This document shows positions 9,656 through 36,244 of a stretch of DNA of 64,000 nt, piece by piece. The number at the start of each line of letters is the position of its first letter. Position 1 is the stretch's first letter. Source of the stretch: Nocardioidaceae bacterium SCSIO 66511 (GTDB lineage: Bacteria > Actinomycetota > Actinomycetes > Propionibacteriales > Nocardioidaceae); contig CP095846.1 in NCBI GenBank assembly GCA_023100825.1, positions 3,782,001-3,846,000 of the forward strand. Reading direction: 5' to 3'. The notes beneath the pieces were generated by a model, which worked only from the letters and a program-made list of their open reading frames with translations, was not told the DNA's origin and did no database searches. The translations under genes were made by a program, and so were the position numbers.

Positions 9656-9733
9656 GCGGGACATCCTCGCAGGTACGCCCGCGATGCCGAGGTACGGCTT
9701 CCCGCCCCGCGTCATGCGGCGAAGTACCGCGAC

Positions 9734-12530: not shown

Positions 12531-12624
12531 ACGGGGAAACCTCGCGGCACGGGATATTCGGGATCCGCTGCGATGGCCAAACCCTATGCGCCATAGTGGC
12601 GCAGTGCCCGAGGAGGCGATCTCA

Positions 12625-13563
12625 GTGACGGAGTCGACGACAGACCGCGTCTCAGTCCTGTACGTCGGCGGCATGCCTCGGAGTGGTTCCACGCTTACCG
12701 ACCTGCTGCTTGATCAGCTCCCCGGTCATATCGGCGTCGGAGAGATCTTCTACCTGTGGGACGACGCGCTGGTGCGCAATGCGCCGTGCGCCTGCGGCGA
12801 GACCTTCCACAGCTGTTCGTTCTGGCAAGCCGTCGGCGAGCGGGCGTATGGCGGATGGGAGTCGATCGACCCCGAGCACGTCAAACAGCTGCAACGCACG
12901 GTCGATGTCACGGCCGCCATTCCCAAACTTGTGCGCAAACCTCGCTCGGCCGCGTTCGCATCGTCACTCGACGAGTACCTCGATCTTCTGACCCGGCTCT
13001 ATCGCGCCGTGGTTGCAGTGAGCGGGTGCCGGATAGTCGTGGACTCATCGAAGCGTCCGTCGATGGCGTACGCGCTTCGCCGTGCCTCCGAGATCGATCT
13101 CAGAGTCGCCCATGTCGTCCGCGATCCACGCGGTGTCGCCTACTCGTTCTCCAAGACCGTGTCGGTCGATCGTGGTGTCGGCGTCCCGACGGAGATGCCA
13201 CGAACCGTCCCGCGCAAGGTCGCGCGACGATGGGTGACGGTGAACCTGTCGATCGCGGGACTGTCTCGCCTCGGTGTTCCGCTCGAACGCCTCAGGTACG
13301 AGGATCTCGTTGCCCAACCGCAGCGGGAGCTGTCCCGGGTACTCGACCTCGAGAAGCGAGCTCTGCCCGCCGACTGGAACTTCGTCGAGAACGGCGCCGT
13401 CAACATTCCTCGCACACATGCGGTCGCCGCCGGTCGCGTCAGCCGCGAGAGCGGCAGCATGCCGCTGCGGCGCGATGACGCTTGGCGAGGGGCAATGCCC
13501 GACAGAGACCGCAAGCTAGTCAGCGCACTGACAGCGCCATTGCGTCTGTGGTACGGCTACTGA
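12625..13563 (+). CDS. Sulfotransferase with conserved Cys motif
   Basis: The 312-residue protein has the PSB loop VGGMPRSGSTLTDLLLD (residues 15-30) and the 3'-phosphate region AHVVRDPRGVAYSFSKT near residue 170, both typical of PAPS-dependent sulfotransferases. It also has CACGETFHSCSFW followed by a GW pair, a motif repeated in the sulfotransferase half of the fusion at 22336-23787; the two are close paralogs. GTG 12625 is chosen because GAGGAGG lies 8 bases upstream; an earlier GTG at 12604 lacks this. Its 3' end overlaps the convergent membrane-protein gene by 7 bp. It probably sulfates the same glycan or protein class as its paralog. Confidence 0.88.
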   Translation: MTESTTDRVSVLYVGGMPRSGSTLTDLLLDQLPGHIGVGEIFYLWDDALVRNAPCACGETFHSCSFWQAVGERAYGGWESIDPEHVKQLQRTVDVTAAIPKLVRKPRSAAFASSLDEYLDLLTRLYRAVVAVSGCRIVVDSSKRPSMAYALRRASEIDLRVAHVVRDPRGVAYSFSKTVSVDRGVGVPTEMPRTVPRKVARRWVTVNLSIAGLSRLGVPLERLRYEDLVAQPQRELSRVLDLEKRALPADWNFVENGAVNIPRTHAVAAGRVSRESGSMPLRRDDAWRGAMPDRDRKLVSALTAPLRLWYGY

Positions 13564-18035: not shown

Positions 18036-18056
18036 CGGCCGCATCCCTCACCAACA
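16057..18056. repeat. 2000-bp duplicated tract, copy A
   Basis: This segment covers the ribosome-binding site, signal peptide and propeller region of paralog 1 and matches 20114-22113 at a constant offset of 4057 bp. The translations agree in several frames on both strands, so the DNA appears identical. Identity stops abruptly at both edges. Confidence 0.9.
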
Positions 18057-18261: not shown

Positions 18262-19182
18262 GTGTGCGAATTGCCCTCTCCCGGTGTATCCGTAGTGATC
18301 GCGACCCGCGATCGACTCGACCTCCTCCAGTGCGCGATCGGCGCCGTGGTCTCCCAGGACTACTCCGGACCGATCGAGGTCCTGGTCGTCTTCGACCGCT
18401 CCACTCCCGTACCGACGCTCGAGCGAGACGACCCACACCGACGGGTGCGTGTACTCGAGAACACCCGCTCCGCTGGGCTTCCGGGCGCACGCAACAGCGG
18501 CATTCTCGCAGCCGAGCACGACTTGGTCGCCTTCTGCGACGACGACGATCACTGGTTGGCGAACAAGTTGCGCCGCCAAGTGGACGCACTCGAGTTGCGC
18601 TCGGTAGCTGCGGCAGTGACGGGCATCCAGATCCGATTCGAAGAGTCGGTGACACCCCGGCCGATCGACCGCGCCTCGATCTCGTTCGACGACCTGATTC
18701 GCGATCGGCTGACCGAAGCACACCCGTCGACGTTCCTCATTCGACATGAGCTGTTCGAAGACGAGTCCGAACTTGTCGATGAGGAGATACCAGGCGGTTA
18801 CGGCGAGGACTACGACCTTCTGCTGAGGCTCGCGCGACGCGCACCGATCGCGGTCGTCCCCGAGCCGCTCGTGGAGGTTCTGTGGCATCAAGGGTCCTTT
18901 TTCACAAGGAGATTCGAGACCATCGTCACCGCGCTCGACTACCTCCTCGACAAGCATCCTGAGTTCGCGGACGACCGCCGCGGCCACGCTCGCATCACCG
19001 GCCAGCAGGCCTTTGCCCTTGCTGCGATCGGGCGGCGTTCTGACTCGGTCTCGACTGCGCTGGCGACCTTGCGCCGGCAACCGTCGGAGAAGCGCGCGCT
19101 CCTATCCCTACTCGTGAACATGCGGGTCGTCGGCCCGGAGACAGTGCTTCGCCTCGCACACCGAACCGGTCGCGGCATCTGA
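18262..19182 (+). CDS. GT2 family glycosyltransferase
   Basis: The 306-residue protein has a GT-A core: PGVSVVIATRDRLDLLQCAI, ARNSGILAAEHDLVAFCDDDDHW (the DxD-type metal site) and GGYGEDYDLLLRLARR (the ED acceptor motif), followed by a helical C-terminal region. There is no membrane segment, so it should act in the cytoplasm on nucleotide sugars and a lipid-linked acceptor. The start is GTG 18262, with TTG 18271 as an alternative; neither has a strong ribosome-binding site. It is a lone plus-strand gene between two divergent or convergent propeller genes. Sugar specificity is unknown. Confidence 0.85.
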   Translation: MCELPSPGVSVVIATRDRLDLLQCAIGAVVSQDYSGPIEVLVVFDRSTPVPTLERDDPHRRVRVLENTRSAGLPGARNSGILAAEHDLVAFCDDDDHWLANKLRRQVDALELRSVAAAVTGIQIRFEESVTPRPIDRASISFDDLIRDRLTEAHPSTFLIRHELFEDESELVDEEIPGGYGEDYDLLLRLARRAPIAVVPEPLVEVLWHQGSFFTRRFETIVTALDYLLDKHPEFADDRRGHARITGQQAFALAAIGRRSDSVSTALATLRRQPSEKRALLSLLVNMRVVGPETVLRLAHRTGRGI

Positions 19183-22092: not shown

Positions 22093-22113
22093 CGGCCGCA
22101 TCCCTCACCAACA
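20114..22113. repeat. 2000-bp duplicated tract, copy B
   Basis: Partner of 16057-18056 in direct orientation. The junctions are the CCGATGAAG sequence at the left and CCTCACCAACA at the right. A direct repeat of this length can mediate a 4057-bp deletion or duplication that would remove or add one hybrid gene and the GT2 gene between. Confidence 0.9.
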
Positions 22114-22335: not shown

Positions 22336-23787
22336 CTAGTAGCCGAACGCGCGCCGAACGCCGGCGGTCAGCAGCCCTACAACGCGTCGGTCTCGCGCAG
22401 GCAGCTGCGAGCGCCACGCATCGTCTCGCACCAGGTCGACGGCTCCGGTCTTGAACCGCATAGGGTTCCCGGCAACCGTGTGTGCCTCCCGCAGCTGGAT
22501 CCGACGACCGTCCACATGCGCAAGCTCCGTGCCGGTGTCGTGACCGGCGAAATCGAGTAGCCGCTGCAGGGTTTCGGCCGGTGCGTCCAAGAAGTCCTCG
22601 TACCGCACGGTTGTCAACGGGACGCCTCGGGTGCGTAGTCCGGTGGCAAGACCAGCGAACGTCGTCCATGTCGCGGCCGACCGAGCGGCCCCGTACCGAG
22701 GCATCATGACCGCCTCGTCGACGACCTCCGGTCGCTTGACGGATTTCGCCCACGAGTGCGCGACCCCCCGTGGGTCACGCACCACGTGGACGCAGCGCAG
22801 GTCCACCTGCGCGCGGCGGGCGAGCGCGGCGTACGCAGGCAGCTTGCTCGAGTCGACCAACAGTCGCGCTCCCGACGTGTCGTACGCCGCGCCGTACAGC
22901 CGACCTAGTCGACTCACCATTCGGTCACGCTCGAGGCGGTGTTGCGCCGATGGACTTGTCGTCAACAGTTCGAGGTATCGCCGCGTGCGCACGACACGGT
23001 GCCGATCGGCGACGACCTCGCTCAGATCGAGCGTCTCCCAGCCGTCGAACGCCGCCTTGCCCACTGCCGACCAGAACTCACATTTGTCGAATGTGAGACC
23101 ACATCCACACAGCTCGTGATCGCGTACGCCGCGCTCCCACAGGTGGACGGTCTCGCCAAGGGACGCGACGCCTGGGACGTCACCCAGCGCGCGTTCCAAC
23201 AGCGTCGACCCGCTGCGTCCGGAACCGACCATCAACAGCACCTTGGGCCGAGACTGCACCCCTCCGAGCTCCGCGATGACGTTGCCCAACCGTTGGCTCG
23301 CCGTTGCAAGTCGCGCGTCAGCCTCTGGATCTGCATCCATGCGCGGCGTTGGGTCGTCGACGCCGGCGTCGAGCAGCGCACGGAACTCGGTGGCGCCGTT
23401 CGCGGCGTAGATCAGACCGTCATCGTTCAGTCGCCGGCAGAAGGCGAGCTGGTGGCCGTCGACGTGCTCGCCAAGCATCGGGTCGCGGGCGACGACCACC
23501 GGGATCCGGCCCGCATCGCGCGCTTCCACGATCGACATGGGGCCGCCCTGGGTGACGATCACGTCAGCTCGCCGCATCAATGCCGCCAACTCGTCATGCG
23601 ACACATACGGCGCCGCCGGGCTGTTCGGATGCTTCGACGTCCCGTACTGGATGAACACGTCGACATCGGGCCGAAGCGACGCCCAGTCATCGAGCCAGTC
23701 GACGAGGCGATCGAATCGATGATGGTCCGAGCCGACCGTTGCGAGCACGAACGGGACGCCTGGGCGCACATTGGCTGCGATGCTCAC
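22336..23787 (-). CDS. Fusion of Alg13-like (GT28 C-terminal) domain with a sulfotransferase
   Basis: Residues 10-150 are an Alg13/EpsF-type domain: FIQYGTSKHPNSPAAPYVSH, ADVIVTQGGPMSIVEA and MLGEHVDGHQ, the UDP-sugar binding half of a two-part glycosyltransferase. Residues 180-483 are a sulfotransferase with PSB VGSGRSGSTLLERAL (187-201), CGCGLTFDKCEFW and VVRDPRGVAHSWAKS (336-350). GTG 23787 overlaps the stop of the Alg14-like gene by 4 bp, so the two halves of the glycosyltransferase are translationally coupled. The fusion suggests that a sugar is added and then sulfated on the same membrane-bound assembly. I do not recall this domain pairing as a described family; that needs a search. Confidence 0.88.
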   Translation of the reverse strand: MSIAANVRPGVPFVLATVGSDHHRFDRLVDWLDDWASLRPDVDVFIQYGTSKHPNSPAAPYVSHDELAALMRRADVIVTQGGPMSIVEARDAGRIPVVVARDPMLGEHVDGHQLAFCRRLNDDGLIYAANGATEFRALLDAGVDDPTPRMDADPEADARLATASQRLGNVIAELGGVQSRPKVLLMVGSGRSGSTLLERALGDVPGVASLGETVHLWERGVRDHELCGCGLTFDKCEFWSAVGKAAFDGWETLDLSEVVADRHRVVRTRRYLELLTTSPSAQHRLERDRMVSRLGRLYGAAYDTSGARLLVDSSKLPAYAALARRAQVDLRCVHVVRDPRGVAHSWAKSVKRPEVVDEAVMMPRYGAARSAATWTTFAGLATGLRTRGVPLTTVRYEDFLDAPAETLQRLLDFAGHDTGTELAHVDGRRIQLREAHTVAGNPMRFKTGAVDLVRDDAWRSQLPARDRRVVGLLTAGVRRAFGY

Positions 23788-24239
23788 AGCACCTGCCCGA
23801 TGAGCTCGGAGCCGCGGTAGAGGTCGCGCTGCTCTTCCCACTGGACACAGAACCGCGATGTGACCGGCCGGCACATGCGACCGGTCAGCGTCTTCGAGTC
23901 GATCCGGTCGTAAACCTCGACGTACACGGTCGGGATCCCACGCCTCCGCGCCTCGACGAAGAACGGCACGGCAACGCCCGCGCCAGTGGACACAACGATG
24001 TCCGGACGTACCGCAGGAATCACCTTCCTGGCCAGGTTCCAGTTGCGGGCCAGGTTCACGACATTGCGCGTCGTCGGGTGGTACGCGTGAATGACGTCCT
24101 CGCCGGCAAGCGGCTCCTGTGCATCAGGTTTGTCGAATGTCACCCACGTTCGCGGGTGATCCGCCCAGACCGAGCGGAGACGTACGAGCTGGGCAAGATG
24201 ACCGCCAGTAGACGTGACAAGTAACAACCGAGGATTCAT
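23784..24239 (-). CDS. Alg14-like glycosyltransferase membrane-anchor subunit (PssD/CpsF-like)
   Basis: The 151-residue protein opens MNPRLLLVTSTGGHLAQLVRL, followed by TWVTFDKPDAQ, NLARNWNLARKVI and DIVVSTGAGVAVPFF, then VYVEVYDRIDSKTLTGRM. This is the Alg14/PssD/CpsF pattern, a membrane-associated acceptor-binding half that works only with an Alg13-like partner. The partner is encoded directly downstream as the N-terminal part of the sulfotransferase fusion. Together they should transfer a sugar from a UDP donor to a lipid-linked acceptor at the inner membrane face. Confidence 0.88.
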   Translation of the reverse strand: MNPRLLLVTSTGGHLAQLVRLRSVWADHPRTWVTFDKPDAQEPLAGEDVIHAYHPTTRNVVNLARNWNLARKVIPAVRPDIVVSTGAGVAVPFFVEARRRGIPTVYVEVYDRIDSKTLTGRMCRPVTSRFCVQWEEQRDLYRGSELIGQVL

Positions 24240-24329: not shown

Positions 24330-25217
24330 TCAGTGCCGAGCCATGATTTCTCGCCATGCGCGTTGGGACGGCGCATCCTCGAGCTCGAACTCGCCGCCGA
24401 CCGACGAGTTGAAGTAGGTGACGAAAGCGGCGTCGTTGCGCCTCGAGTACGACGCCACTTCACGCAGCCACTGGGCGCGTCCCGCTCCGTCGTCTCCGAC
24501 CGCCAGCTTGCTTCCGAGCTCCGCAATCGCCCACGCCGAACCTGCCCGTCCCGACAGTTGCTGGGACGCGTCGAGAATGGCGGCGGGCGACGCGTACTCG
24601 CCGTCTCTTGCGGCCGCGTTGTAGCAGTCCCAGGCAAGTACGTCGGGCGGATCTGCAGGGACGTACGCTGACCACCGACGTGTCGAATCCGCGCGTGCGG
24701 TCCAGCACATCAGGACGACAGTGCTGATCAGTCTGGGGCTATGCGCCTGATCGGCGATCCGATCGATGTGCTCCCACGCGCGTACGAACTCGTCGGCAGT
24801 GAAAGCACCTCGCTCGATATCATCCTCGGGCTCGTGGAAGTAGACCCAGTACACGTCGCGATCTGTCGGCGCTTGCGCAAACCAGTCGCGTAGGTACGCA
24901 TCCACATCACCGTCGAGTACCTCACGCGGTGCGACCTTGAAGGACACGACTACGTCGGCCGACCCGGCCAGGCCGGTGATCTTCGGCCAGGGTTCTGGTC
25001 GAGACGACGAGAACAGCCTCACGATCGGCGGCGTACCGATCTCGCGGCTGGCCCGCTCCGCGGCGGCCGTCGCGGACTCGCCCGGACGCGAGGCGACGGT
25101 GGCACCGAACACGGTTACGTCGCCGCGATCCGCTCGCCCGTCTGCCAATACGGCCGCGACCGCACCGACGATCGCTGCCGTGAGCAGGAGCGCCAGTGCG
25201 GCTCGCAGTCTCGTCAC
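24330..25217 (-). CDS. Secreted glycoside hydrolase-like protein (TIM-barrel type), acidic paralog
   Basis: The 295-residue protein has an N-terminal signal/anchor (MTRLRAALALLLTAAIVGAV). Its catalytic-type motifs are WVYFHEPED, with Glu129 as likely acid/base, and AIAELGSKLA, with Glu233 as likely nucleophile. These are spaced as in (beta/alpha)8 retaining glycosidases such as the GH26-like group. VLAWDCYN between them is a typical barrel strand. It is paralogous to the next upstream gene (25258-26196) but has few lysines and many Asp/Glu. It may trim or release the locus's own polysaccharide outside the cell. The family assignment is tentative. Confidence 0.7.
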   Translation of the reverse strand: MTRLRAALALLLTAAIVGAVAAVLADGRADRGDVTVFGATVASRPGESATAAAERASREIGTPPIVRLFSSSRPEPWPKITGLAGSADVVVSFKVAPREVLDGDVDAYLRDWFAQAPTDRDVYWVYFHEPEDDIERGAFTADEFVRAWEHIDRIADQAHSPRLISTVVLMCWTARADSTRRWSAYVPADPPDVLAWDCYNAAARDGEYASPAAILDASQQLSGRAGSAWAIAELGSKLAVGDDGAGRAQWLREVASYSRRNDAAFVTYFNSSVGGEFELEDAPSQRAWREIMARH

Positions 25218-25257: not shown

Positions 25258-26196
25258 TCAGCCGATCCGGTTCACCACGAACCGCCAGCCACGCTTGGAC
25301 GGACGGTCACGCAGTCGGAAGTCACCGCCGACATCACTGTCGAAGTAGGTGACGAACCGTGCATCGTGCTTCTTCAGGTAACGACCCGCACGGCGAAGCC
25401 ACGCCTCCCGTCGGTCACCGTTGTCGCCGGAGGCGAGCAGGCTGCCGAACTCGGCGATACCGTACGGCCGGTTCTGCCGCGCCGAGATCCGGATGATCTT
25501 GCGGAACATCTTCTTCGGCGCGAGATAGCTGTTCTTCCGGATGAGGTAGTTGTACGCATCCCATCCGAGCACGTCGACCGCGGACCGTACGTAATAGTCC
25601 TTCCAGGAGCGCCCGGAGCTGGGGTTCAGGGACCACGCCATCAGGATCAGCGTCGACTTCAACTTGGGGTTGTGTGCCTTCGCCTCGAGCCGCTTCAGAT
25701 GCTTCCATGCCCGGCGGTACTGGGCAGCCGTGAACTGGCCGGCCTCGATGTTGTCTTCGGGCTCGTGGTAGTACGACCAGAAGGTGGGCTTCTTCTTCGG
25801 CGCATGCCGGAACCATCGGGTGAGGAATCGATCGTGGCGACCGGAAGCGATCGCAACCGGGTCGGCCTTGAACGAGACGACGAGCCGTCGACCCTTGTAG
25901 TTCGATCGCAGACTCGACCACGAGGCCGGCAGCCCGGTGTGGAATGCCCGGACGACGTCGACCCCGCCGAACTTGCGATCGGTGCGCTTCAAAGCCTGCG
26001 CCGCGGTCTCGCCGCCTCGGCGCTGAGCAGTGGACCCGAACAGCGTCTTCGGTGCCTTCTTGCTCGCGACGGTCGACGGCGCACTGGTGGATCCCGATTG
26101 GCTTGCACCCGTTGCTGCTAGCGGAGCGACAGTCATTGCGGCGCTTGTTGACAATACGAAAAGTGTGCGATGCACACGGTGTGACGTAGTACTCAT
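25258..26196 (-). CDS. Secreted glycoside hydrolase-like protein, basic paralog
   Basis: The 312-residue protein has a signal peptide (LFVLSTSAAMTVAPLAATG), a Ser/Thr/Lys-rich spacer and the same fold markers as its neighbour: WSYYHEPEDNIEAG (Glu145) and GIAEFGSLLASGD (Glu249), with VLGWDAYNY between. Numbering is from ATG 26196, favoured over the in-frame GTG at 26205 because GAGTGG lies 6 bases upstream. Unlike its paralog it is rich in Lys and Arg. A tandem acidic/basic pair of candidate hydrolases next to a sulfated-glycan locus suggests activity on a charged polymer. No cleavage specificity can be read from sequence. Confidence 0.7.
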   Translation of the reverse strand: MSTTSHRVHRTLFVLSTSAAMTVAPLAATGASQSGSTSAPSTVASKKAPKTLFGSTAQRRGGETAAQALKRTDRKFGGVDVVRAFHTGLPASWSSLRSNYKGRRLVVSFKADPVAIASGRHDRFLTRWFRHAPKKKPTFWSYYHEPEDNIEAGQFTAAQYRRAWKHLKRLEAKAHNPKLKSTLILMAWSLNPSSGRSWKDYYVRSAVDVLGWDAYNYLIRKNSYLAPKKMFRKIIRISARQNRPYGIAEFGSLLASGDNGDRREAWLRRAGRYLKKHDARFVTYFDSDVGGDFRLRDRPSKRGWRFVVNRIG

Positions 26197-26248
26197 AGTA
26201 ACCACTCAATTGCGGACGGTTAACAAGCACAAGACGATAAACCTTGCG

Positions 26249-26347: not shown

Positions 26348-27898
26348 TTAGGACCGTCGGATCGACAGCCCGTCAAGACGAAATGTGAGCCGGAACACGG
26401 CCACGCCAACCGCATACACAGCGGTTCCGACACAGATTGAAACTCCGAGTTTCATCACTTCGTTGTCGAGGAGCGCATTGGCGATCGCCGGAATAACCCC
26501 GAAACAAGTCAACGCACCTGCCGCTGCAATCAGCAACGATTGCCCGAATGGGTGCATGCGAAGACCCACGTTCACCTGCCAGAGTGCCATCAGGTTCTTC
26601 ACCAAGATGCCAACGGACCAGCCGATCGCTGCACCGGTGATGCCGAGTTCCGGTATCAGCACCAGATCGATGACCACCATCACGAGCAGAGCGAGCACGG
26701 CATTGCCGAGGCTCTGCATGCTGCGTCCGGCCATCAGTAGCACTGAGTCGACCGGACCGCATGAAGTCGCGACGAGCATCGTCAGACAAAGGATGACCAC
26801 GGTCGGCCACCCAGATGTGTATGAGGGCCCGAACACGCCTAGCAACAACGACGCGAAGGACGCCGACAGCAGGTAGATAGGCCAGGAGATCAGCGTCAAC
26901 CAGGTCGTCGTGGTCTGGTAGATCGCCCGGGCCCGATCGTTGTCGTCGAGGGCAACTGCCTCGCTGATCTTCGGCGCCATCACCTGCTGGATCGACTGTA
27001 CGAACATCGTCCCGATCACCAGGAACCGCGTCGCGGCCGCGTACAGGGCGGCGTCGGCCGCCCCGAGCAGCGCGCCGACAAGGAGCACATCGGCGCGCTG
27101 CATCGCGACGTTGCAAACGCGCGATACCGCCCGCGGTGCCGAGAACGCCCAGAACGAACGAACCAGCGCGCTGCGGTCTGCGCGCGACGTCGGTTGTCGC
27201 GCCGAGTCTCCGCGGCGACGCCGATAGCGCACGATCCAGTGTGCGACAACGAGGAGCCCGATCAGGTACGCAAGGGTCCAGCCCGCCACCGCTCCGGCCG
27301 CGGTGTCGATTACGACGACAGCTCCCAGAACTAGCAGGAGTTGCAAGAAGCCCTTGCCGATCTTGTCGACCAGCACCAGTACCCGAATCGAGCCCAGCCC
27401 TCGCGTTGCCGAAACCCCGACCGTGTATGCGACCGTCACCGGAAGCATTCCCGCGACGATATAGAGGCAGGTCGTCATCGCGTCGTCGGCCGATCCGGTG
27501 TCACCGACGAGCAAGGCCCCGATCTGCGGTGCGCTCAGCGCGAGCGCGAGTCCGACCACGACCGCACAGACGACCGGCCAACGGATCGCCGTGCGCAGGT
27601 ATACCCCGATGGTGTTCGACTCACCGAGCGCCTGAGCCTGCGGCAACGAGCGCAGCACTCCCGTGTCGGCGCCGAGCGTCCCCAGGTTGAGCAGCACCAT
27701 GAACAACGCCGTCGCCTCGAAGAACACCCCTGCGTCGTGTGTAGCCAGCTGCCGGGTCACGACAATAGGAAGCAGCAGGCTCAACGCACCGGCAGTGACG
27801 CTGCCGATCAAGCTCAGCAGGCTTTCGCGCGCCAGCGACCGGAGCGCCGCGTGATGTCTGCCGGCACCCGTTGCCGTGTCGCCCGTCACCTCCGCCAT
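26348..27898 (-). CDS. Polysaccharide flippase-like membrane protein (Wzx/MurJ-type)
   Basis: The 516-residue protein has about 14 hydrophobic segments and the MOP-superfamily start LLSLIGSVTAGALSLLLPIV followed by VTRQLATHDAGVFFEATALF. It should move the lipid-linked oligosaccharide made by this operon across the membrane. It is the last gene of the operon from 36244 and overlaps the upstream sulfotransferase by 13 bp if ATG 27898 is used; ATG 27919 is also possible. A second flippase-like gene at 760-1965 is not closely similar by eye. Confidence 0.88.
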   Translation of the reverse strand: MAEVTGDTATGAGRHHAALRSLARESLLSLIGSVTAGALSLLLPIVVTRQLATHDAGVFFEATALFMVLLNLGTLGADTGVLRSLPQAQALGESNTIGVYLRTAIRWPVVCAVVVGLALALSAPQIGALLVGDTGSADDAMTTCLYIVAGMLPVTVAYTVGVSATRGLGSIRVLVLVDKIGKGFLQLLLVLGAVVVIDTAAGAVAGWTLAYLIGLLVVAHWIVRYRRRRGDSARQPTSRADRSALVRSFWAFSAPRAVSRVCNVAMQRADVLLVGALLGAADAALYAAATRFLVIGTMFVQSIQQVMAPKISEAVALDDNDRARAIYQTTTTWLTLISWPIYLLSASFASLLLGVFGPSYTSGWPTVVILCLTMLVATSCGPVDSVLLMAGRSMQSLGNAVLALLVMVVIDLVLIPELGITGAAIGWSVGILVKNLMALWQVNVGLRMHPFGQSLLIAAAGALTCFGVIPAIANALLDNEVMKLGVSICVGTAVYAVGVAVFRLTFRLDGLSIRRS

Positions 27899-28755
27899 GA
27901 CGGGGTATGTCCCCACCATTCGGCGAGGCGTGTGTCCCAGGGCTCGAACTGTCGACGTAGGTCGGTGCGGAGCCGGTCGTCGAGCGCAGACCGTGGGCGC
28001 GCGTTGTGCCGTTCGAAGGAGATCGTGACCGCCGGTCGCAGCCCGAGGAACTTGCGTACCTGCTCGAACACCGGCTCGGGGCTGGTGAAGAAGTCACCCG
28101 AGTCGACGAGCAACAGCCGCTCCCGCCCGACCTCGGCGACGACGCGCTCGATCTGCTCGATGTAGCGACCGCGGGATAGGTACGCGTTGTGCTGGATCTG
28201 AGGGCTGTCGTACGTCGGATCGTCTTCTATCCGTTGCCATTCGCCCTCGAGCCGACCGGGCTCGGCCGCGATCGCTGCCTCGAAGTCGAGCGTCTCAAAG
28301 CCCCGGGCGTACTCGTGCGCATGTGCGGAGTACGCCCGTTCTACCGGGTCCCGGAGCAGCATGAGCAGACGTACGTCCGGCAGATCGCGGGCGATTCTGG
28401 TGACGGCGTGCGGATGGAACATGTAGTAGGGGCTCGACTCACCCGTGTGCTTCGTACCTCTGGCGCCGCGCAGCATCGCACCGGCTCGCAACGGAAAATG
28501 GCCGCGATACCAGCTCTGCCCTCGGTCATAGTTCTTGTCGAAATAGTGAATGCCCTTGCGCAGGAAGGGTCGTACGACATCGGGATGCTGGATGAGCGTC
28601 TTGAACATCGAGGTCGTGCCACACCTCTGCGCGCCCACGATCAGGAACGTCGGCTCCAGCCGGGCGAAGGCGGTCGGCACCGCCACGGCTTCGGATGCGC
28701 GCAGTAGTCCGCGACGGCCGGCCTCGACGCCGCCTTGCATTGTCATCGGCTTCAT
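27886..28755 (-). CDS. PAPS-dependent sulfotransferase
   Basis: The 289-residue protein has PSB FLIVGAQRCGTTSMFKTLIQ (about residues 37-56), then FDKNYDRGQSWYRGHFP, TGESSPYYMFHP and the 3'-phosphate region LLRDPVERAYSAHAHE, the order seen in heparan N-/O-sulfotransferase-like bacterial enzymes. It resembles the sulfotransferase at 6399-7172 more than the Cys-motif type. It overlaps its operon neighbours by 4 and 13 bp. Being inside the core assembly operon, it probably sulfates the repeat unit before export. Confidence 0.9.
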   Translation of the reverse strand: MKPMTMQGGVEAGRRGLLRASEAVAVPTAFARLEPTFLIVGAQRCGTTSMFKTLIQHPDVVRPFLRKGIHYFDKNYDRGQSWYRGHFPLRAGAMLRGARGTKHTGESSPYYMFHPHAVTRIARDLPDVRLLMLLRDPVERAYSAHAHEYARGFETLDFEAAIAAEPGRLEGEWQRIEDDPTYDSPQIQHNAYLSRGRYIEQIERVVAEVGRERLLLVDSGDFFTSPEPVFEQVRKFLGLRPAVTISFERHNARPRSALDDRLRTDLRRQFEPWDTRLAEWWGHTPSWRR

Positions 28756-29957
28756 GCGGTTGCCCCCGTCTCATGGTCGTGGGTCAGCGCCGGTAGCAGC
28801 CAATCGCACACGGCGCCCAACGCACCACCGGCCGTCTGCTGGTCGTCACGTAGGTATCGGTCCGCCAACGTGAGCAGGTATGCGCGCGCAAGTACGGTGC
28901 TTTGCTCTCGCGGCGCCACACCTGCCAGCACGGTCGGGGCCGTGGCAACCAACCGATCGGCCGCGGCACGCGGTGGCATACGGTCGACCGTGATCCACTG
29001 GTGCAGGTCATGGTGGAGCAAGTCGAACCCGACCGGCACGCCGACAGGTTCGTACCGTTCCCAATCCCATACCGGGCACGCCCCTGAGGTGAGGGCGAAG
29101 TTGCCGGAATTGAAGTCGCCGTGCCAAGCACCGGTGGCCAACAGCATCCCTCCGTCGAGTCTGGCAAGTGCCTTCGCATACTCGTCGCCCTCGGCACCCA
29201 TCGCGTCGAACGAGTCGGCCAGGCGGCGTCGAAGCGGGTGACCGACCCAGCCCTGCTTCGTCGGGCGACCCGCCGACGCGGAGATCTCGTGGACGATCTC
29301 GATGAGTCGCGCGCGTGCAGGAGCTCCCGTGAGCCGCGACTCCGGTAGGTCAAGCGGGCTGATGCCGAGCACCTGGCATCCGTGCCATCCGAACGTGAAC
29401 ATCCGCTCGGGTACGACGATCGATGGTCGACTCCACGAAGCCAGTCGCGTCAACACTGCGGACTCGGCTTCGACGAGCCTGCCGGTCAACGCGTTGTGGC
29501 CGACCTTCACGAACGCCAATGCGATGCCGTGGTCATCGCTCACCTGGATGATCGGCTTGCGATTGGCTCGACGAGGTCCGATCGGCAGCGTGAGGTGCAC
29601 GTCTCGGCGACCGAGGCGTTTCGCGAGCGCGTCGGTGAAGTCTGCGCCCTGCGTCGGCACAACAACGAGGGTTGCTCCCGGGAGCCACCGCAGGGCACCT
29701 ACTCGGGCAGCGGTCGAGACGACGCCGCGAGCCAGCCGCGTTCGCCGACGCTGCCCGGCGAGCTGCCGCTTGATCGCACTCGCCGACGCCCTCGCCGACC
29801 GAGCAGAAACCAGCAGGCGTGCGGATCTTACGGAAGGTATCGCGGTGAAGCGTTGGAGCCGCTGCCTCGATTCCGGCGGGGCAGACGAGACGCCGACCGG
29901 ATAGAGCGTGTCGAGCAGCTCCATTGCTGCCGGGCGATGCGATGCGCGCTCGCTCAT
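28752..29957 (-). CDS. Kinase-fold (phosphotransferase/APH-like) protein
   Basis: The 401-residue protein has an N-terminal region of about 130 residues of unknown nature and then an APH/choline-kinase-like core: IALAFVKVG (Lys151, ATP binding), TGAWHGDFNSGNF (HGDxxxxN catalytic loop, Asp281) and CPVWDWERYE (metal-binding Asp298). The active-site residues look intact, so it may phosphorylate a small molecule, a sugar or a lipid carrier. It overlaps the ligase-like gene and the sulfotransferase by 4 bp each, so it is an integral part of the glycan operon. Its substrate is unknown; an added phosphate decoration or sugar activation are possibilities. Confidence 0.75.
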   Translation of the reverse strand: MSERASHRPAAMELLDTLYPVGVSSAPPESRQRLQRFTAIPSVRSARLLVSARSARASASAIKRQLAGQRRRTRLARGVVSTAARVGALRWLPGATLVVVPTQGADFTDALAKRLGRRDVHLTLPIGPRRANRKPIIQVSDDHGIALAFVKVGHNALTGRLVEAESAVLTRLASWSRPSIVVPERMFTFGWHGCQVLGISPLDLPESRLTGAPARARLIEIVHEISASAGRPTKQGWVGHPLRRRLADSFDAMGAEGDEYAKALARLDGGMLLATGAWHGDFNSGNFALTSGACPVWDWERYEPVGVPVGFDLLHHDLHQWITVDRMPPRAAADRLVATAPTVLAGVAPREQSTVLARAYLLTLADRYLRDDQQTAGGALGAVCDWLLPALTHDHETGATA

Positions 29958-31396
29958 ACGCCTACCACCCCTCGGGTCTCGCCGGATGCACCGTTCAGCG
30001 CGCCGTCATCGGGCCGAGCCAACGCTTCCCGCCGGAGCTGATCGTTACGCCACAGCAGCCCTGCGGACACCATCGAGATCGTCAGCGGAACGGTCAAGCC
30101 CGTGTAGAAGAAGGCATAGAACACCTGGAGTAGCAGGACGAGCGTTGCCGCGATGCCGAGTGGTGAGGCGTCCTTGCGTCCAAACCAGGCCATACGGAGC
30201 AGGAACCCGAGGTACAGGGCTGCGCCGACGAACCCCTGTGCGATCAGCAGCAGCCAGAACTGTCCGGTGCTTCCGATCACCCGGTTGCCGCACTTCGGGC
30301 AATCGGCGCTAGCTCCGACCGCGATCGAGTTCCCGCTCCCGATCGTGAGCCGAGTGCTTCCCGCTCCGATGATCGGAGACGCCTCGGCCGCACGCCAGGA
30401 TGCGTCCGCCAACGAGGCCCGAATGTCGTTGCTGTGCGGGTTGTCGAGCCGCTCGGACACCAACGTGCTCAACGGCGACATCACGAACACCACCGCGGCA
30501 GCGGACGCCACAGCCAAGCTGATGAAACCGACCAGCAGCCTCCCGCGCACCGCGAGTCTGACTATGACGTACGCGAGCGCGAGGAGCATGCCGATCCACA
30601 CCGCTCGGTTCAGCGAGTGGATGATCGGAACTGCCGCGACAGCGATCAGCACAACGAGCATTACGCGTTTGCCGAGGCTCCCCATGACGCCCCAGGCGAG
30701 CACGGCCCAGATCAAGCACAGGGAGAGTACGTTGCCCCAGGCGTTGGTGTAGGCGAACGGAGCCGCAGGGCGTGCCTCGGGATCGCCGATGATGTCTTGC
30801 ACCTGGGCCAACCGGGCTGTACCTGACCCGCCGACGAGCGAATCGGGCATGAATCGCGTCAACAAGGTCTCGAACTCATAGCTCGGGAAGACCATGGCCG
30901 CCACTCCGAGTGCTACGCAGAAGACGCCGAGCCAGGCGATCCACCTGATCAGACGAGCTCGCGGCAGCTCCTTCTCCGTCGAGGTGCCGACGTACAGAAG
31001 GATCACCGTCACACTCACGTACTGAAGCAACCGAACGGTGTAGGCGATGTACCGCCCGATCCCCTCGGACCCGAGCGTGTCGGGCACCTGGAAGTTCAGC
31101 ATCAGGCTGCTCGCGGCAACCCAGACCAGGAACAACCCCCACAGCCAGAAGCCTCGCGGCACCCGCGGTCTGCGCCGACGCAGCTGCCAAGCGAGTGGCG
31201 CCGCGAGCACGGGCAGGATCAGGTCGGTGACGCCGAGTGCCCACCACAGCGGGATGCCGGCGGTGAGCAGGCCGATCTGCCATCCGGGTCGAAGGCCGCC
31301 GCGCCGGCGACGAGCGACCACACTCGGCGACCCAACGGCGACCCGGCCATCCACATCAGTCGAGAGCCGGTCCACGGTTGTGGGGCCGCTGATCAT
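29954..31396 (-). CDS. O-antigen ligase/polymerase-like membrane protein (Wzy/WaaL type)
   Basis: The 480-residue protein has about 11 membrane segments (for example LILPVLAAPLAWQL, FWLWGLFLVWVAASSLML and VGFISLAVASAAAVVFV) and one large extracytoplasmic loop near residues 320-400. This layout is that of O-antigen polymerases and ligases. The loop contains a CPKCG pair that could bind metal or form a disulfide. ATG 31396 overlaps the stop of the GT14-like gene by 4 bp. It probably polymerises flipped repeat units, controlled by the Wzz-like protein, or links the chain to an acceptor. Confidence 0.82.
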   Translation of the reverse strand: MISGPTTVDRLSTDVDGRVAVGSPSVVARRRRGGLRPGWQIGLLTAGIPLWWALGVTDLILPVLAAPLAWQLRRRRPRVPRGFWLWGLFLVWVAASSLMLNFQVPDTLGSEGIGRYIAYTVRLLQYVSVTVILLYVGTSTEKELPRARLIRWIAWLGVFCVALGVAAMVFPSYEFETLLTRFMPDSLVGGSGTARLAQVQDIIGDPEARPAAPFAYTNAWGNVLSLCLIWAVLAWGVMGSLGKRVMLVVLIAVAAVPIIHSLNRAVWIGMLLALAYVIVRLAVRGRLLVGFISLAVASAAAVVFVMSPLSTLVSERLDNPHSNDIRASLADASWRAAEASPIIGAGSTRLTIGSGNSIAVGASADCPKCGNRVIGSTGQFWLLLIAQGFVGAALYLGFLLRMAWFGRKDASPLGIAATLVLLLQVFYAFFYTGLTVPLTISMVSAGLLWRNDQLRREALARPDDGALNGASGETRGVVGV

Positions 31397-32238
31397 TGCG
31401 ACCTCGCACCGATCTCCGTCAGCAATTCGCTGCTTGCCGCGGTCTCGAACTTTCGCGCAAAATAGGCACCGCTCGCCGCCAATGACTCCAGGTGCCCGAT
31501 TGACAGAGTTTCCGGGTGGGGAGACTGGTCGGGCCACACGATGAATCGGCGGTGGTCATTGACGATGGCGAGTTCGGCACTGTCGTTCAACAGCAATGTC
31601 GGCAGCAACGCCTCGTCCGAGTTCGAACATCGGGCCAGATATCTGTCTACGCGGGTCATACGCGAGCGCTGCCTCACGATGTGATCGAGCGCTCGATCGT
31701 TCAGGTTGACCCAAGTCGCCCCTATGAACAGCTTCAGCGAACTAGAGAACGGCGACAGACGAGGAAATGGGACAGAACGCCTGCCGAACGGAACACGACG
31801 CCTGCGTAGGTAGCGGCCACGACACCTCGTCTGCCAGTGATGCTCTCCTTCAACTTGGCGTGGCGTCACCTCATAGTGCTGCAACATCGCATCCGCGTTG
31901 GCGGCATCAAGATCGGCCTCGATCTCTGCCATCGGCATGATGGGCATGTCCTGGCCAGATACGACTAGGACCCAGGAAAGATCGGGAACTACCCGCCGAC
32001 ATTGCTCGAGCGAATCCAGTACTGCCCATGCGAGCTCCGGGCGACCCCAACGGATCGTGCGCGAGTTCTGGATGATGTGAACACGTTCGGACGCCCGGAC
32101 ATCCAATCTTGGGCCCTTTTGGTCGTGGTGGATCACGACCTTCGTATTGCACCCCTCGAGCACGGCACGCGTAAGGCGACTGACCTGCGCCGGATCGGTG
32201 TGCGACATGATGAGAACGACGATCGGCCCGTTAGCCAT
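31393..32238 (-). CDS. GT14-like (core-2/I-branching type) glycosyltransferase
   Basis: The 281-residue protein begins IVVLIMSHTDPAQVSRLTRAV and has KVVIHHDQKG, WGRPELAWAVLDSLEQ and LSWVLVVSGQDMPI. These are followed by LFIGATWVNLNDRAL and CSNSDEALLPTLLLND, the signature order of the family named for core-2 beta-1,6-N-acetylglucosaminyltransferases. Bacterial members act on exopolysaccharides. It overlaps its neighbours by 4 and 8 bp. The donor sugar (GlcNAc or xylose in known relatives) is not certain here. Confidence 0.8.
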   Translation of the reverse strand: MANGPIVVLIMSHTDPAQVSRLTRAVLEGCNTKVVIHHDQKGPRLDVRASERVHIIQNSRTIRWGRPELAWAVLDSLEQCRRVVPDLSWVLVVSGQDMPIMPMAEIEADLDAANADAMLQHYEVTPRQVEGEHHWQTRCRGRYLRRRRVPFGRRSVPFPRLSPFSSSLKLFIGATWVNLNDRALDHIVRQRSRMTRVDRYLARCSNSDEALLPTLLLNDSAELAIVNDHRRFIVWPDQSPHPETLSIGHLESLAASGAYFARKFETAASSELLTEIGARSQ

Positions 32239-33052
32239 CGTGACTCCGTGCCCGGACCACGTCGCCGACCATCGAGAGGTCGCGGAGGTCGTACCCGAAT
32301 GCGGCGACGCGGTCGGCGTAGGTGCGGATCAGCCGCTCGGCAGCGGCCCCATGCCAGGGCCAGCGAGACCCTCGGATCTCGCGCCAGCGTTCGGCGTACA
32401 CGTCGCTACGGGAGGCCTCGATGGAGTCTGCCGGGACAGGTCCGTCGAGCCGGAGGAAGCCGCCGACCCGTGCCAGGACGGAAGCTGGGTCGGCCACGAG
32501 GTCTTCGTACCGGACCAGCAGCACCTGGTCGTTTCCGCTCGCGTCCGCCGCGAACAGCTCGTACGCCCTCAGCCAATGCTCGATCAGCCGCGCGCGCCGG
32601 GTTGTGCGGCGCCACCTGTTCGTCGACAGCGTCACGACAACGGGGTGGCGGATGATCATCACGAAGCGTGCCGACGGATAGAGCGCCTGCAGGAACCGCG
32701 TCATGATCAGGTTCGGCGGTGACTTCTCCACCCAGACGGGCGCCGAGCGGTCCCAGTGCCGCGACCACTGAGCGAGCAGGCGGTCGGCGTTCGCGCGCGA
32801 GACCAGCGGCGACGCCTCGGTGAGATGCGCCGCCGGGTCGAACGCGAACCGGCCGGCACCGCCGTATGCACGCGCAGACGGGTACACGTCCTGGAGGTGC
32901 TGCCCTTCGTCCTCCTTGACCCCGGTGTTTGCGAACGCGCTCACCGCATCGTGGCGTCCTAGCGCGCGCGCCAGCGCTGTCGTGCCGCTGCGGTGGAGAC
33001 CGCCGACGAACACGAGCTGGTGCTCCGAGACGTTCGAGGACCCTGTCATCAT
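32231..33052 (-). CDS. PAPS-dependent sulfotransferase
   Basis: The 273-residue protein has PSB VFVGGLHRSGTTALARALG (about residues 14-32) and the 3'-phosphate region VMIIRHPVVVTLSTNRW, with WVEKSPPNLIMTRF between, typical of the Sulfotransfer_3-type family. The ATG overlaps the Wzz-like stop by 4 bp, and the 3' end overlaps the GT14-like gene by 8 bp. It is the first sulfotransferase of the main operon. Acceptor specificity is unknown. Confidence 0.9.
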   Translation of the reverse strand: MMTGSSNVSEHQLVFVGGLHRSGTTALARALGRHDAVSAFANTGVKEDEGQHLQDVYPSARAYGGAGRFAFDPAAHLTEASPLVSRANADRLLAQWSRHWDRSAPVWVEKSPPNLIMTRFLQALYPSARFVMIIRHPVVVTLSTNRWRRTTRRARLIEHWLRAYELFAADASGNDQVLLVRYEDLVADPASVLARVGGFLRLDGPVPADSIEASRSDVYAERWREIRGSRWPWHGAAAERLIRTYADRVAAFGYDLRDLSMVGDVVRARSHDG

Positions 33053-34824
33053 GCGCCTCTGCGCAGGAGCTTCGACTTGGGCTTGGTTTGACCGACCGGC
33101 TCATGGTCGGTCACGGACTCACTGGTGGCGCTCGACTCGGAGCCCTCGTCGGGATCCGGGCGCGCCGCAGCGTTGGCGGCCGTTGCCGCCTCCGCCGCCC
33201 GCGCACGCTTACGATCACGTCGGCGCAGGCGTGCCTTCTTACGCTCACGATGAACCGCGACACCGGCGACGTCCGTCGCACCGACCTTCTTCACATCATC
33301 GACGACGGCTTCCATCTCGTCTCGCCCGGTGTTGCCCAGGTCGACGACGATCAACACGAGGTCGACGTGTCGCCCGAGCAGTGGCAGATCGAAGGATGGG
33401 TCGCCGGTCGGCAGATCGAGAATCGTCAGGTCGTACTTCGCCTCGAGGTCGTCGAGCACGGGTCGAATCCGCCGGTGCCGGAGCTCTCCGCGACTGGCGA
33501 TGCCCAACGTCGAGTGATCGGTGCGGCTCAACGCACCGCGCCGGTCGATATCACGCGCCTCACTGCGGACCCCGGCGCTATCCGAGGGCTCTCGTACGTG
33601 CACCGTGATCGTCCCGGTCTGCGCCGAGAGCGCCGCCAACGTCGAGCTGATCGCGCTCGCGGCGGACTGATCGCCGGGTCCGCAAACCAGGACGCTGCGA
33701 GTGGACCCGCCGTAAGCAGCGATGATCGAGTGATACAAGGAGCGCACCTCGGGCAACGGTGCCTCGACTACGCCGGTCACCGTGTCGAAAACCCGAACAT
33801 CGGCCATGACCGGCAAGCCGTAGTTGCGTTCGAGGTCGTGGCGGGTGTGTGGCCTCCGGTCAAGCTTCTCCCGCAACACGGCGGCCGCGAGCGAACCCAG
33901 CAGGCCCAACAGGACGGTACTCACCATCACCAGAAGCGGTCGTGGCGACGTCGGTGAGCTCGGCTGCTGCGGGTCGACGATGATCGTGCCTGGCCGCTGG
34001 ACGGTGCCCTCGAGCGGGCTGAGCTGAGTGTTGAGAGTGTCCAGCTGAGCGGTCAGCTGCATCCGCCTCGCGCGTAGGACGCTGAGCTGGGCGGTGTCGT
34101 CAGTAGCGCGAATCTCCTCGGAGGTCTGCGACAGTTGGTCAGTGAGGTCGTCGACCCGGTCTCGCAGACTCGCGATGTCTGCGTCGACGGCATCCTGCGC
34201 CGTAGTGGCCCGGTTGTCGAGGTACGACTGGGCGAATGCGGCGGCCCCAGCCTGCGCCTCGGCCGGGCTCGACGCTTCGAACGCGATCACGAGGACTGTC
34301 GTGTTGGCCGGAACGGTGACGGTCACCTTCGAGGCGAGCTCGACCGGATCGGACGGGTCGTCGAGTTCCTCGCCTGCGCCTTCGGCGACGGCGACGGATC
34401 GCACCAGCTGTGCCTCGGTATCGAGGTTGATCCCCTCGCTGCTGCTAACGCCGCCCGTTGGTTCGGTGTCTGTGGACGTCGCCGAGACGAGCACCTTGGC
34501 CGTCGAGGTGTAGGTCTTCGGCGCCAGTTGCAGGTACGCCGCACCGACGATCACCCCGAGCAGGAGGCCGCACAGAATCCAACGCCACCGCCGTTTGGCG
34601 AACGAGGCGTAATCGCCCAACTCCAAGGCGTTTCCATACTGGACGTCCTGCAACCCCCGACTCTCCTTCGCTCCCAAGGCGATCGGTCGACCGCCGTCAG
34701 TGTATGGACTTTCGTCTTCCGAATGCCGCGAAACGACTGAGATGCCCGGACTCTCGTTGGCCGGACGCGGCTGATCGGATGCGCGCCCGGGCTCCCCCGC
34801 GCGACCCCGCTCACGACGCGCCAT
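33049..34824 (-). CDS. Wzz/CpsC-type polysaccharide co-polymerase with degenerate kinase-like domain
   Basis: The 591-residue protein has a long cytoplasmic N-terminus (about 75 residues) and a membrane helix (WRWILCGLLLGVIVGAAYLQ). A periplasmic-side domain with a coiled-coil stretch (about 205-270) follows, ending in PRPLLVMVSTVLLGLLGSL, and then a cytoplasmic domain. That domain resembles a BY-kinase or MinD-type ATPase, but the P-loop position reads VCGPGDQSAASAISST without the catalytic GK(S/T), so it is probably inactive. The tail (from about 535) is very Arg/Lys/Ala-rich. Co-polymerases set chain length. The start is ATG 34824 or GTG 34827. Confidence 0.85.
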   Translation of the reverse strand: MARRERGRAGEPGRASDQPRPANESPGISVVSRHSEDESPYTDGGRPIALGAKESRGLQDVQYGNALELGDYASFAKRRWRWILCGLLLGVIVGAAYLQLAPKTYTSTAKVLVSATSTDTEPTGGVSSSEGINLDTEAQLVRSVAVAEGAGEELDDPSDPVELASKVTVTVPANTTVLVIAFEASSPAEAQAGAAAFAQSYLDNRATTAQDAVDADIASLRDRVDDLTDQLSQTSEEIRATDDTAQLSVLRARRMQLTAQLDTLNTQLSPLEGTVQRPGTIIVDPQQPSSPTSPRPLLVMVSTVLLGLLGSLAAAVLREKLDRRPHTRHDLERNYGLPVMADVRVFDTVTGVVEAPLPEVRSLYHSIIAAYGGSTRSVLVCGPGDQSAASAISSTLAALSAQTGTITVHVREPSDSAGVRSEARDIDRRGALSRTDHSTLGIASRGELRHRRIRPVLDDLEAKYDLTILDLPTGDPSFDLPLLGRHVDLVLIVVDLGNTGRDEMEAVVDDVKKVGATDVAGVAVHRERKKARLRRRDRKRARAAEAATAANAAARPDPDEGSESSATSESVTDHEPVGQTKPKSKLLRRGA

Positions 34825-36244
34825 CACGCTGGATCACGGCCTTGAACGTACGTGCGGCGATCGCGAGATCACCGCCGGGCGTCCAGTTGTCGACGTACCC
34901 GAGATCGAGGCCGACGGAGTCGTTCCAGCTAAGGCTCGATCGTCCGCTCACCTGCCACAGACCGGTCATACCCGGCTTCACCGCAAGACGGCGTGCGACC
35001 CACTCGTCGTAGCTCGCGACCTCGGTCGGCAGGCTCGGCCGCGGACCGACCAGAGACATCTCACCCTTGACCACGTTGATCAGCTGCGGCAGCTCGTCGA
35101 GCGAGGTCTTGCGCAGGAAACTGCCGATCCTGGTCACCCGTGGGTCCCGGGCCATCTTGAACAACGGGCCGGCGCCTTCGTTCTGGGCCATCAGGTCGGC
35201 GAGCAATGACTCTGCGTCGACGCACATGGTGCGCAGCTTGTACATCGTGAAGGGCTCGCCGCCGAGGCCTGCACGCTCCTGACGGAAGAACGCGGGTCCG
35301 CGAGAGTCGAGACGTACGGCCAATGCGAGCAACGCGATCAACGGCGAGAACGCGATCAGCAGCAACGAGCCGCCCACGCGGTCGATCATCGCCTTCACCA
35401 ACCGCTGCAACCGTGGCCGCATGCTCGGCGCCACTGCGAGTACGACACGTCGACCGAGCAGTCGCGGGCGGATTCGATGTGGTGCCGCGCCGTGAACCTC
35501 CGCCGTGACTCCCACGCGTACCCGCGTACCCTCCAAGGCCCAACTGAGCCGGCGTACGTCGTAGGCGGTCACGAGCGGGCCCGGCGCCACGATCACCTCG
35601 TCGATACGTGCGAGCTCGATGATCTTCGCTGCATCGTCGATCGTGCCGAGCACCGGTACGCCGAGCACGCGGGTGGGCCAGTCGCTTGCGTCATCGGGTG
35701 GCTCGACCAGGCACACGCCGCTCACGTCGACGTCGGCGTTGTCCGCCCAGTGCTCTATGCACTGCGAGACGGCGAGACGGTCGCCGACGAGCAACACCGA
35801 CTGCCGCCCGTGCATCGAACGTCGACCGGCAGCGAAGAGAGCGAGCACGACGGCGGCGCCAGCAACGGCCGCCGCGAAACCACGCAGCTGCCCGATCGGG
35901 TACGCGCCGATCAGTGCGGAGACGACGATCGCAATTCCTCCGGCGAGGAGTACGTCGTTTACGGGCTGCCACGAGTACTTTCGCTCTGAGACAGGGATCC
36001 GCGCATGTGACAAGACGATCGCCACGAGGACGAGAAGCCCCACAGTACTGGCGGATCGGACTTCGACGCCGGCCGCGAAGGCAGCGCCCGCGGCGACGAT
36101 GGCGGCACCGGCGCCTGCGATCGGAACGTTGAGTAGCGCACCGAACACTCTGCGTCGGATCGGGGAAGCTGTGCCATTTCGGATTGATGTCGAGGGCACT
36201 TCCGGCGCGACGTGGCGCGCGGAGTGCACATGAGTCTCGCTCAT
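34811..36244 (-). CDS. Polyprenyl-phosphate glycosylphosphotransferase (initiating enzyme of EPS synthesis)
   Basis: The enzyme links the first sugar-1-phosphate to undecaprenyl phosphate. The 477-residue protein has four N-terminal membrane segments (about 34-130), a Rossmann-like middle (SVLLVGDRLAVSQCI) and the bacterial sugar transferase domain (about 285-477). That domain has the hydrophobic hairpin GGSLLLIAFSPLIALLALAV, YKLRTM, RKTSLDELPQL, GEMSLVGPRPSLP and KPGMTGLWQVSGRSSL. It is the first gene of the operon, with a 150-bp gap to pth, where the promoter should lie. The nature of the first sugar (usually Glc, Gal or a diamino sugar) cannot be assigned. Confidence 0.93.
   Translation of the reverse strand: MSETHVHSARHVAPEVPSTSIRNGTASPIRRRVFGALLNVPIAGAGAAIVAAGAAFAAGVEVRSASTVGLLVLVAIVLSHARIPVSERKYSWQPVNDVLLAGGIAIVVSALIGAYPIGQLRGFAAAVAGAAVVLALFAAGRRSMHGRQSVLLVGDRLAVSQCIEHWADNADVDVSGVCLVEPPDDASDWPTRVLGVPVLGTIDDAAKIIELARIDEVIVAPGPLVTAYDVRRLSWALEGTRVRVGVTAEVHGAAPHRIRPRLLGRRVVLAVAPSMRPRLQRLVKAMIDRVGGSLLLIAFSPLIALLALAVRLDSRGPAFFRQERAGLGGEPFTMYKLRTMCVDAESLLADLMAQNEGAGPLFKMARDPRVTRIGSFLRKTSLDELPQLINVVKGEMSLVGPRPSLPTEVASYDEWVARRLAVKPGMTGLWQVSGRSSLSWNDSVGLDLGYVDNWTPGGDLAIAARTFKAVIQRDGAS

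Follow-up and report, generated by a model that had tools for sequence, protein, structure and literature searches.

An actinobacterial fusion of an Alg13/PssE-like domain and a sulfotransferase in a putative Wzx/Wzy-type polysaccharide locus

Why should the donor-binding half of a split glycosyltransferase be joined to a sulfotransferase (ST) in one protein? The question is raised by a gene within a 64,000-nucleotide stretch of actinobacterial DNA (hereafter the window), which encodes an Alg13/PssE-like domain, a linker and an ST as a single product (22336..23787, minus strand), as judged from Pfam and NCBIfam searches, an orthologue, structural models and fold matches. We address whether the two domains are truly encoded as one protein, what each may do, how widely the arrangement recurs and what it may accomplish in its locus.

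One frame for two domains

The fusion gene is an uninterrupted frame of 483 codons that starts with GTG at 23787-23785. It is laid out as a donor-binding domain of the Alg13/PssE type (residues ~1-140), a linker (~141-180) and an ST domain (~180-483). Pfam Glyco_tran_28_C matches residues 14-118 (25.5 bits, cut-off 22) and Sulfotransfer_3 matches residues 185-416 (47.2 bits, cut-off 27). The longest mechanical open reading frame begins upstream at 23874, and its extra part falls within the Alg14/PssD-like gene (23784..24239, minus strand; 151 aa), the predicted acceptor half, which carries a Pfam Alg14 domain (35.2 bits, cut-off 27). The TGA stop of this gene overlaps the GTG start of the fusion (23785..23787) by 4 bp (GTGA), and a 4-bp RTGA overlap of start codon and Alg14 stop is found exactly in 11 of the 12 other fused loci described below. 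The overlap suggests translational coupling of the two genes. A preliminary description of this DNA had claimed both the in-frame joining of an Alg13-like domain to a complete ST and the Alg14-like partner directly ahead with a 4-bp overlap, and the frame, the domain matches and the coordinates bear it out on both counts.

The same fusion is present in a genome of the same genus (G001) with 71 % identity over residues 6-483 and no stop, a match well beyond chance expectation, and every indel between the two genes is a multiple of whole codons. Between them the Alg13 part has a dN/dS ratio of 0.14, the ST one of 0.16 and the linker one of about 0.37-0.45, values consistent with purifying selection on both domains. 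The linker is poorly conserved between the congeners (38-41 % identity). Codons 135-195 of the G001 gene, which span its linker, contain no ATG, GTG or TTG ahead of codon 191, and the fusion gene appears to lack a conserved internal restart. Taken together, the orthologue, the whole-codon indels, the dN/dS values and the start-free G001 linker argue for selection for one polypeptide and exclude the sequencing error by which the preliminary description had allowed that two separate genes might look like one; the presence of the fusion in 13 genomes excludes it as well.

Predicted functions of the fused domains and their partner

PssD/PssE-type glycosyltransferases are split MurG-like enzymes, and the eukaryotic Alg13/Alg14 enzyme is split alike (PMC4973528); pssD and pssE form an overlapping gene pair (PMC9961541). 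The window pair resembles PssD/PssE of Rhizobium, Cps14F/Cps14G of Streptococcus and EpsE/EpsF of firmicutes in its predicted split enzyme, its overlapping genes and its place in an exopolysaccharide locus. The best NCBIfam model for the Alg13 half is PssE/Cps14G (54.7 bits, under the curated cut-off of 120), and that for the Alg14-like partner is PssD/Cps14F, a near miss at 100.1 bits against a cut-off of 110. The Alg13 half is predicted to function like PssE, yet it is not classed as an NCBIfam PssE/Cps14G equivalog. The domain matches support the prediction that the Alg14-like protein and the Alg13 domain are the two halves of a PssD/PssE-type glycosyltransferase.

PssD/PssE and Cps14F/Cps14G, by contrast, have no ST attached. 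The window pair also differs in its sub-cut-off NCBIfam scores and, together with its clade, in the HGG motif found in Alg13 domains. This motif reads QGG at residues 80-82 of the window fusion and likewise in G001, L052, L091 and L092; the replacement is found in the window's fusion clade and in one further locus (L106). The position may contact the nucleotide sugar. The EHVDxHQ motif is retained as EHVDGHQ.

Modelled alone with AlphaFold, the Alg13 half reached a mean pLDDT of 83.5 from a thin alignment, since the input was confined to sequences of the window and related loci. A structural search with this model returned GT-B nucleotide-sugar domains at Z scores of about 12-14, among them the galactolipid synthase MGD1 (Z 13.5, 138 residues aligned, 2.7 Å) and MurG (Z 11.8, 134 aligned, 3.2 Å). 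A GT-B fold is accordingly predicted for the Alg13 half, a fold being no proof of activity.

The preliminary description presumed a UDP-sugar as donor and envisaged glycosylation followed at once by sulfation by a single membrane complex. No transmembrane-like segment was found in the fusion or in the Alg14-like protein (no 19-residue span with a mean hydropathy above 1.6), so that membrane attachment would be peripheral. The pair differs in this respect from the Alg13/Alg14 enzyme of eukaryotic N-glycosylation, which has the same GT-B split and whose Alg14 is described as a membrane anchor. A long human ALG13 isoform has extra C-terminal domains, none of which is known to be a sulfotransferase. 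The other element of the envisaged complex, functional coupling of the glycosyltransferase and the ST, fares better: it is supported by the recurrent adjacency and fusion of the genes and by a PAP phosphatase in the locus, both described below.

In the ST domain of the window, the PAPS 5'-loop GRSGSTL and the 3'-phosphate motif VRDPRGVAHS are both present, and GRSGSTL and VRDxRGVA-S are retained in almost all ST domains of the fused and unfused relatives. The AlphaFold model of the whole fusion is confident over the ST domain (blocks mostly >90) and of low confidence over linker residues 124-177. The best structural matches of the ST model are tyrosylprotein sulfotransferases, including human TPST1 (Z 17.5, 3.6 Å, 242 aligned), and the cyanobacterial olefin-synthase sulfotransferase (Z 17.4); a PDB sequence search gave only a weak match, to the CurM sulfotransferase. 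These observations support a full-length ST of the PAPS type, with activity predicted. It shares fold and PAPS-binding motifs with the tyrosylprotein sulfotransferases, the ST domains of polyketide synthases and the Sulfotransfer_3 family of Pfam, but differs in its attachment to a glycosyltransferase domain. A parallel in architecture is heparan sulfate N-deacetylase/N-sulfotransferase (NDST), where an ST is likewise joined to another glycan-modifying enzyme for successive steps; there, however, the partner is a deacetylase and the enzyme acts on a polymer in the Golgi, whereas the window partner is a glycosyltransferase domain.

Recurrence and origins of the fusion

Fused loci are known from at least 13 genomes (L052, L091-L098, L120-L122 and the window itself), after surveys that covered, in overlapping sets, 392 genomes from the order, 395 from the class and 396 from the phylum. 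They fall in eight family groups (f1, f10, f11, f12, f23, f28, f57 and f73), of which f57 and f73 lie outside the window's class. Three of the 13 loci have defects: a contig end divides L098/L099, L097 has an interruption close to its C-terminus, and L122 shows only a partial ST match. The Alg13-ST fusion appears from these comparisons to belong to a phylum-wide actinobacterial family, recurrent and conserved. The preliminary description knew of no report of such a fusion and allowed that the architecture might be common and already characterised. It is indeed recurrent, but we found no published description of an Alg13-ST fusion in the open-access literature, a scope outside which most subscription papers lie.

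Unfused relatives show the same neighbours in separate genes. Four consecutive genes for Alg14, Alg13, ST and a GT2 glycosyltransferase occur in eight f1 loci (L053-L060) and in L105, and beyond the class one or two ST genes come after Alg13 (L124-L127). The ST genes form a tandem pair immediately after Alg13 in L124, L125 and L126. In the f20 loci (L100-L104 and L108) the Alg13 domain is instead fused in frame to GT2 (for example L100:4160-5710), with an Alg14 gene ahead and, where seen, a separate ST a few kb off; in the Alg13 tree these Alg13-GT2 fusions group into a single clade (84 SH-aLRT). The partner joined to Alg13, whether ST or GT2, is thus time and again one of its neighbours in a conserved gene order. 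In some relatives the ST lies several kb from Alg14/Alg13, indicating that the coupling is not obligatory.

Did the fusion arise once? The ST tree rejects one clade uniting every fusion (p-AU 7.6e-5), and the Alg13 tree does so only at the borderline (p-AU 0.049); both values come from short-search trees. A single origin is therefore rejected for the ST and the fusion probably arose in more than one event; domain exchange after fusion would be an alternative to repeated fusion. Two Micrococcaceae STs (L021 and L022) nest in the window's fused clade (99 SH-aLRT) without an Alg13 domain. Their N-terminal extensions bear no resemblance to an Alg13 remnant, and loss of the domain in these loci is possible. 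The ST domain of L065, from a genome of the same family (G018), is identical to that of L026.

The polysaccharide locus and a proposed pathway

The fusion lies in a locus spanning about 2.7 to 36 kb of the window, with genes for an initiating hexose-1-phosphate transferase, Wzz-, Wzy- and Wzx-like proteins, GT2, branching glycosyltransferases and dTDP-sugar synthesis; judged by this content, it is a Wzx/Wzy-type polysaccharide cluster. On the minus strand upstream of the Alg14-like gene lie genes for two GH26-like proteins, the first secreted and recognised weakly, by eye (24330..25217), the second assigned by reading the sequence (25258..26205). Neither has a Pfam match, whereas the GH26 gene of a comparable locus (L023) does score with Pfam GH26. 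They are followed on the same strand by a Wzx-type flippase (26348..27919, Pfam Polysacc_synt), an ST (27886..28755) with a relative in 40 of the 54 stretches compared, a kinase-like protein of the APH fold (28752..29957), below the Pfam cut-off and conserved in the compared stretches, and a Wzy-type polymerase (29954..31537; Wzy_C 31.5 bits, marginally under the cut-off of 31.7). Further along are a core-2/I-branching-type glycosyltransferase (31393..32238) and a Wzz-like chain-length regulator (33049..34653), both from the domain search, with another ST between them (32231..33052, Sulfotransfer_3 99 bits), and the initiating polyprenyl-phosphate hexose-1-phosphate transferase (34811..36148; TIGR03025 348 bits, cut-off 295.6). 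On the other side of the fusion are the GT2 glycosyltransferase (18262..19182, plus strand; Pfam), whose relatives elsewhere stand directly after the ST or are fused to Alg13 in f20, a paralogous ST sharing 39 % identity with the ST domain of the fusion (12604..13563, plus strand), and an ST on the minus strand (6399..7172). The locus thus holds five ST-like genes, the fusion included.

A CysQ-like PAP phosphatase is encoded at 8897..9715 on the minus strand (similarity to PDB 5djf, E 3.5e-68) and is predicted to clear the by-product of PAPS-dependent sulfation. Relatives of it were seen in 15 of the 54 stretches compared, a set in which many are not long enough to show the gene. Family searches of the whole genome, a single contig that is 98 % complete, found an APS kinase and 11 Sulfotransfer_3 matches. 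One of these matches lies in the window outside the polysaccharide locus (60218-60808, plus strand, 49 bits).

This type of locus was reported in 2026 as wps-1 of Actinoplanes missouriensis, which comprises GT2, sulfotransferase, GT26, DUF4262, GH26, methyltransferase, Wzx, sulfotransferase, kinase-like, Wzy and Wzz genes (PMC13390465). Its authors predict a sulfated exopolysaccharide made by the Wzx/Wzy route, with verification pending; wps-1 deletions disturb sporangia, and deletion of wpsB, the first ST gene, leaves sporangia normal by SEM and lowers spore release about tenfold (PMC13390465). The two loci have in common GT2, ST, a GH26-like protein (tentatively assigned in the window), Wzx, a second ST (at 27886..28755 in the window, the WpsH position), the kinase-like protein (the WpsI position), Wzy and Wzz. 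They differ in that the ST of wps-1 (WpsB) is a protein of its own and a GT26 enzyme (WpsC) is present there, whereas the window has Alg14, the Alg13-ST fusion and more ST genes. No GT26 protein (WecG/TagA) was found among the scanned locus proteins, with Alg14/Alg13 there instead. The match is one of domain content and order through two Dactylosporangium loci (L023 and L024) rather than a direct alignment with the AMIS sequences; in these loci GH26 (the gene tested being that of L023) and GT26 accompany genes related to those of the window for the ST, GT2, Wzx, the WpsH-like ST and the kinase-like protein. On this comparison the window locus appears to be the wps-1 gene set with Alg14/Alg13 replacing GT26.

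What, then, might the fusion do? Starting from what was observed directly, namely one conserved frame, the domains and their folds, purifying selection, recurrent adjacency and fusion and the content of the locus, we infer a catalytic activity, a donor, an acceptor, an order of steps and a sulfated product. We consider it fairly probable that the fusion is a two-domain enzyme that both glycosylates and sulfates one undecaprenyl-PP-linked repeat unit in the cytoplasm before export. The pathway would be that of a Wzx/Wzy-dependent exopolysaccharide, probably sulfated. The N-terminal Alg13/PssE-type domain would form a complete GT-B glycosyltransferase with the separate Alg14/PssD-type protein, the GTGA overlap keeping the two in matched amounts through translational coupling. 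This enzyme would add a sugar to the undecaprenyl-PP-linked intermediate begun by the polyprenyl-phosphate hexose-1-phosphate transferase. Next, the tethered ST would pass sulfate from PAPS on to the same short lipid-linked oligosaccharide, still in the cytoplasm, ahead of extension by GT2 and export by Wzx, while the co-localised CysQ-like phosphatase would clear PAP. PssD/PssE and Cps14F/G add the second sugar. The early position of the Alg14/Alg13 step is suggested by analogy, because these characterised relatives act early. Several observations weigh against this model: QGG in place of HGG in the window's clade, NCBIfam scores under the curated PssE and PssD cut-offs, the absence of a transmembrane-like segment from both proteins, the distance of several kb between ST and Alg14/Alg13 in some relatives, and the dispensability for sporangium shape of wpsB, the wps-1 ST gene that occupies the comparable position. 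More tentatively, we hypothesize that a recurrently evolved bifunctional enzyme builds and sulfates the undecaprenyl-linked unit in one cytoplasmic step, which would set the sulfation pattern ahead of export and polymerisation, and that the Alg13 half serves as a docking module fused to the next-acting enzyme, ST in some lineages and GT2 in others; this wider reading is plausible, and we stop short of favouring it.

One alternative explanation is that the fusion serves dosage or scaffolding only, the ST acting on a different, later residue laid down by GT2 or a branching transferase with no direct hand-over. The long linker, with its poor conservation and low model confidence, would fit such a loose arrangement, as would the loci that hold the ST kilobases away from Alg13 and the joining of Alg13 to GT2 in f20. 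However, the fusion recurs, with trees that reject a single fused clade, strongly so for the ST, and many genomes, including some beyond the class, have an unfused ST immediately behind Alg13; we regard the alternative as unlikely, though it carries real weight. It is less probable still that the locus makes no sulfated polysaccharide, its ST-fold proteins being inactive or sulfating a lipid or other small molecule. A sulfated product is a prediction in these organisms, as it is for wps-1 (PMC13390465), but the conserved PAPS-binding motifs, the co-localised PAP phosphatase and the presence of five ST-like genes within one Wzx/Wzy locus make such an outcome improbable.

The Alg14/Alg13 pair could also be a WelK-like glucuronosyltransferase, with the ST sulfating a uronic-acid-containing repeat, given that WelK is the next best NCBIfam model for both proteins. 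Both scores are far under the WelK cut-off (400), and the genome has no match above cut-off to UDP-hexose dehydrogenase families, which leaves UDP-GlcA without an evident source; we disfavour this reading as very improbable. Finally, the window gene has weak SD-like sequences ahead of codons 177 and 186, but a sequencing error joining two genes or an internal start yielding two proteins is scarcely credible and is rejected, given 13 fused genomes, a linker frame conserved between the window and G001, no G001 start codon before codon 191 in the range scanned, and the kept overlap.

The reading of the fusion as a two-domain enzyme would have several consequences. According to the wps-1 authors, cyanobacteria had been the only bacterial source reported for sulfated polysaccharides (PMC13390465), and sulfated capsules of marine Proteobacteria have also been described (PMC11766843, PMC11641403). 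If our proposal is true, related sulfation loci are spread across the actinobacterial phylum, and the fusion tells which glycosyltransferase and which ST work together, making the acceptor of one ST directly testable and providing a natural two-step enzyme for sulfated glycans. With the type of locus already known from wps-1, the new element, as far as the open-access literature shows, is the Alg13-ST architecture, which points to an unstudied route to sulfated surface polysaccharides in a soil-type actinobacterium.

We also observed two paralogous secreted PKD-type proteins encoded on the minus strand at 15147-18044 and 19234-22101. Their DNA is 99.95 % identical over about 2.0 kb, with differing 3' ends, whereas the corresponding pair in G001 is only about 81 % identical to each other. 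This difference makes a recent gene conversion or duplication likely in the window, an assembly effect being possible.
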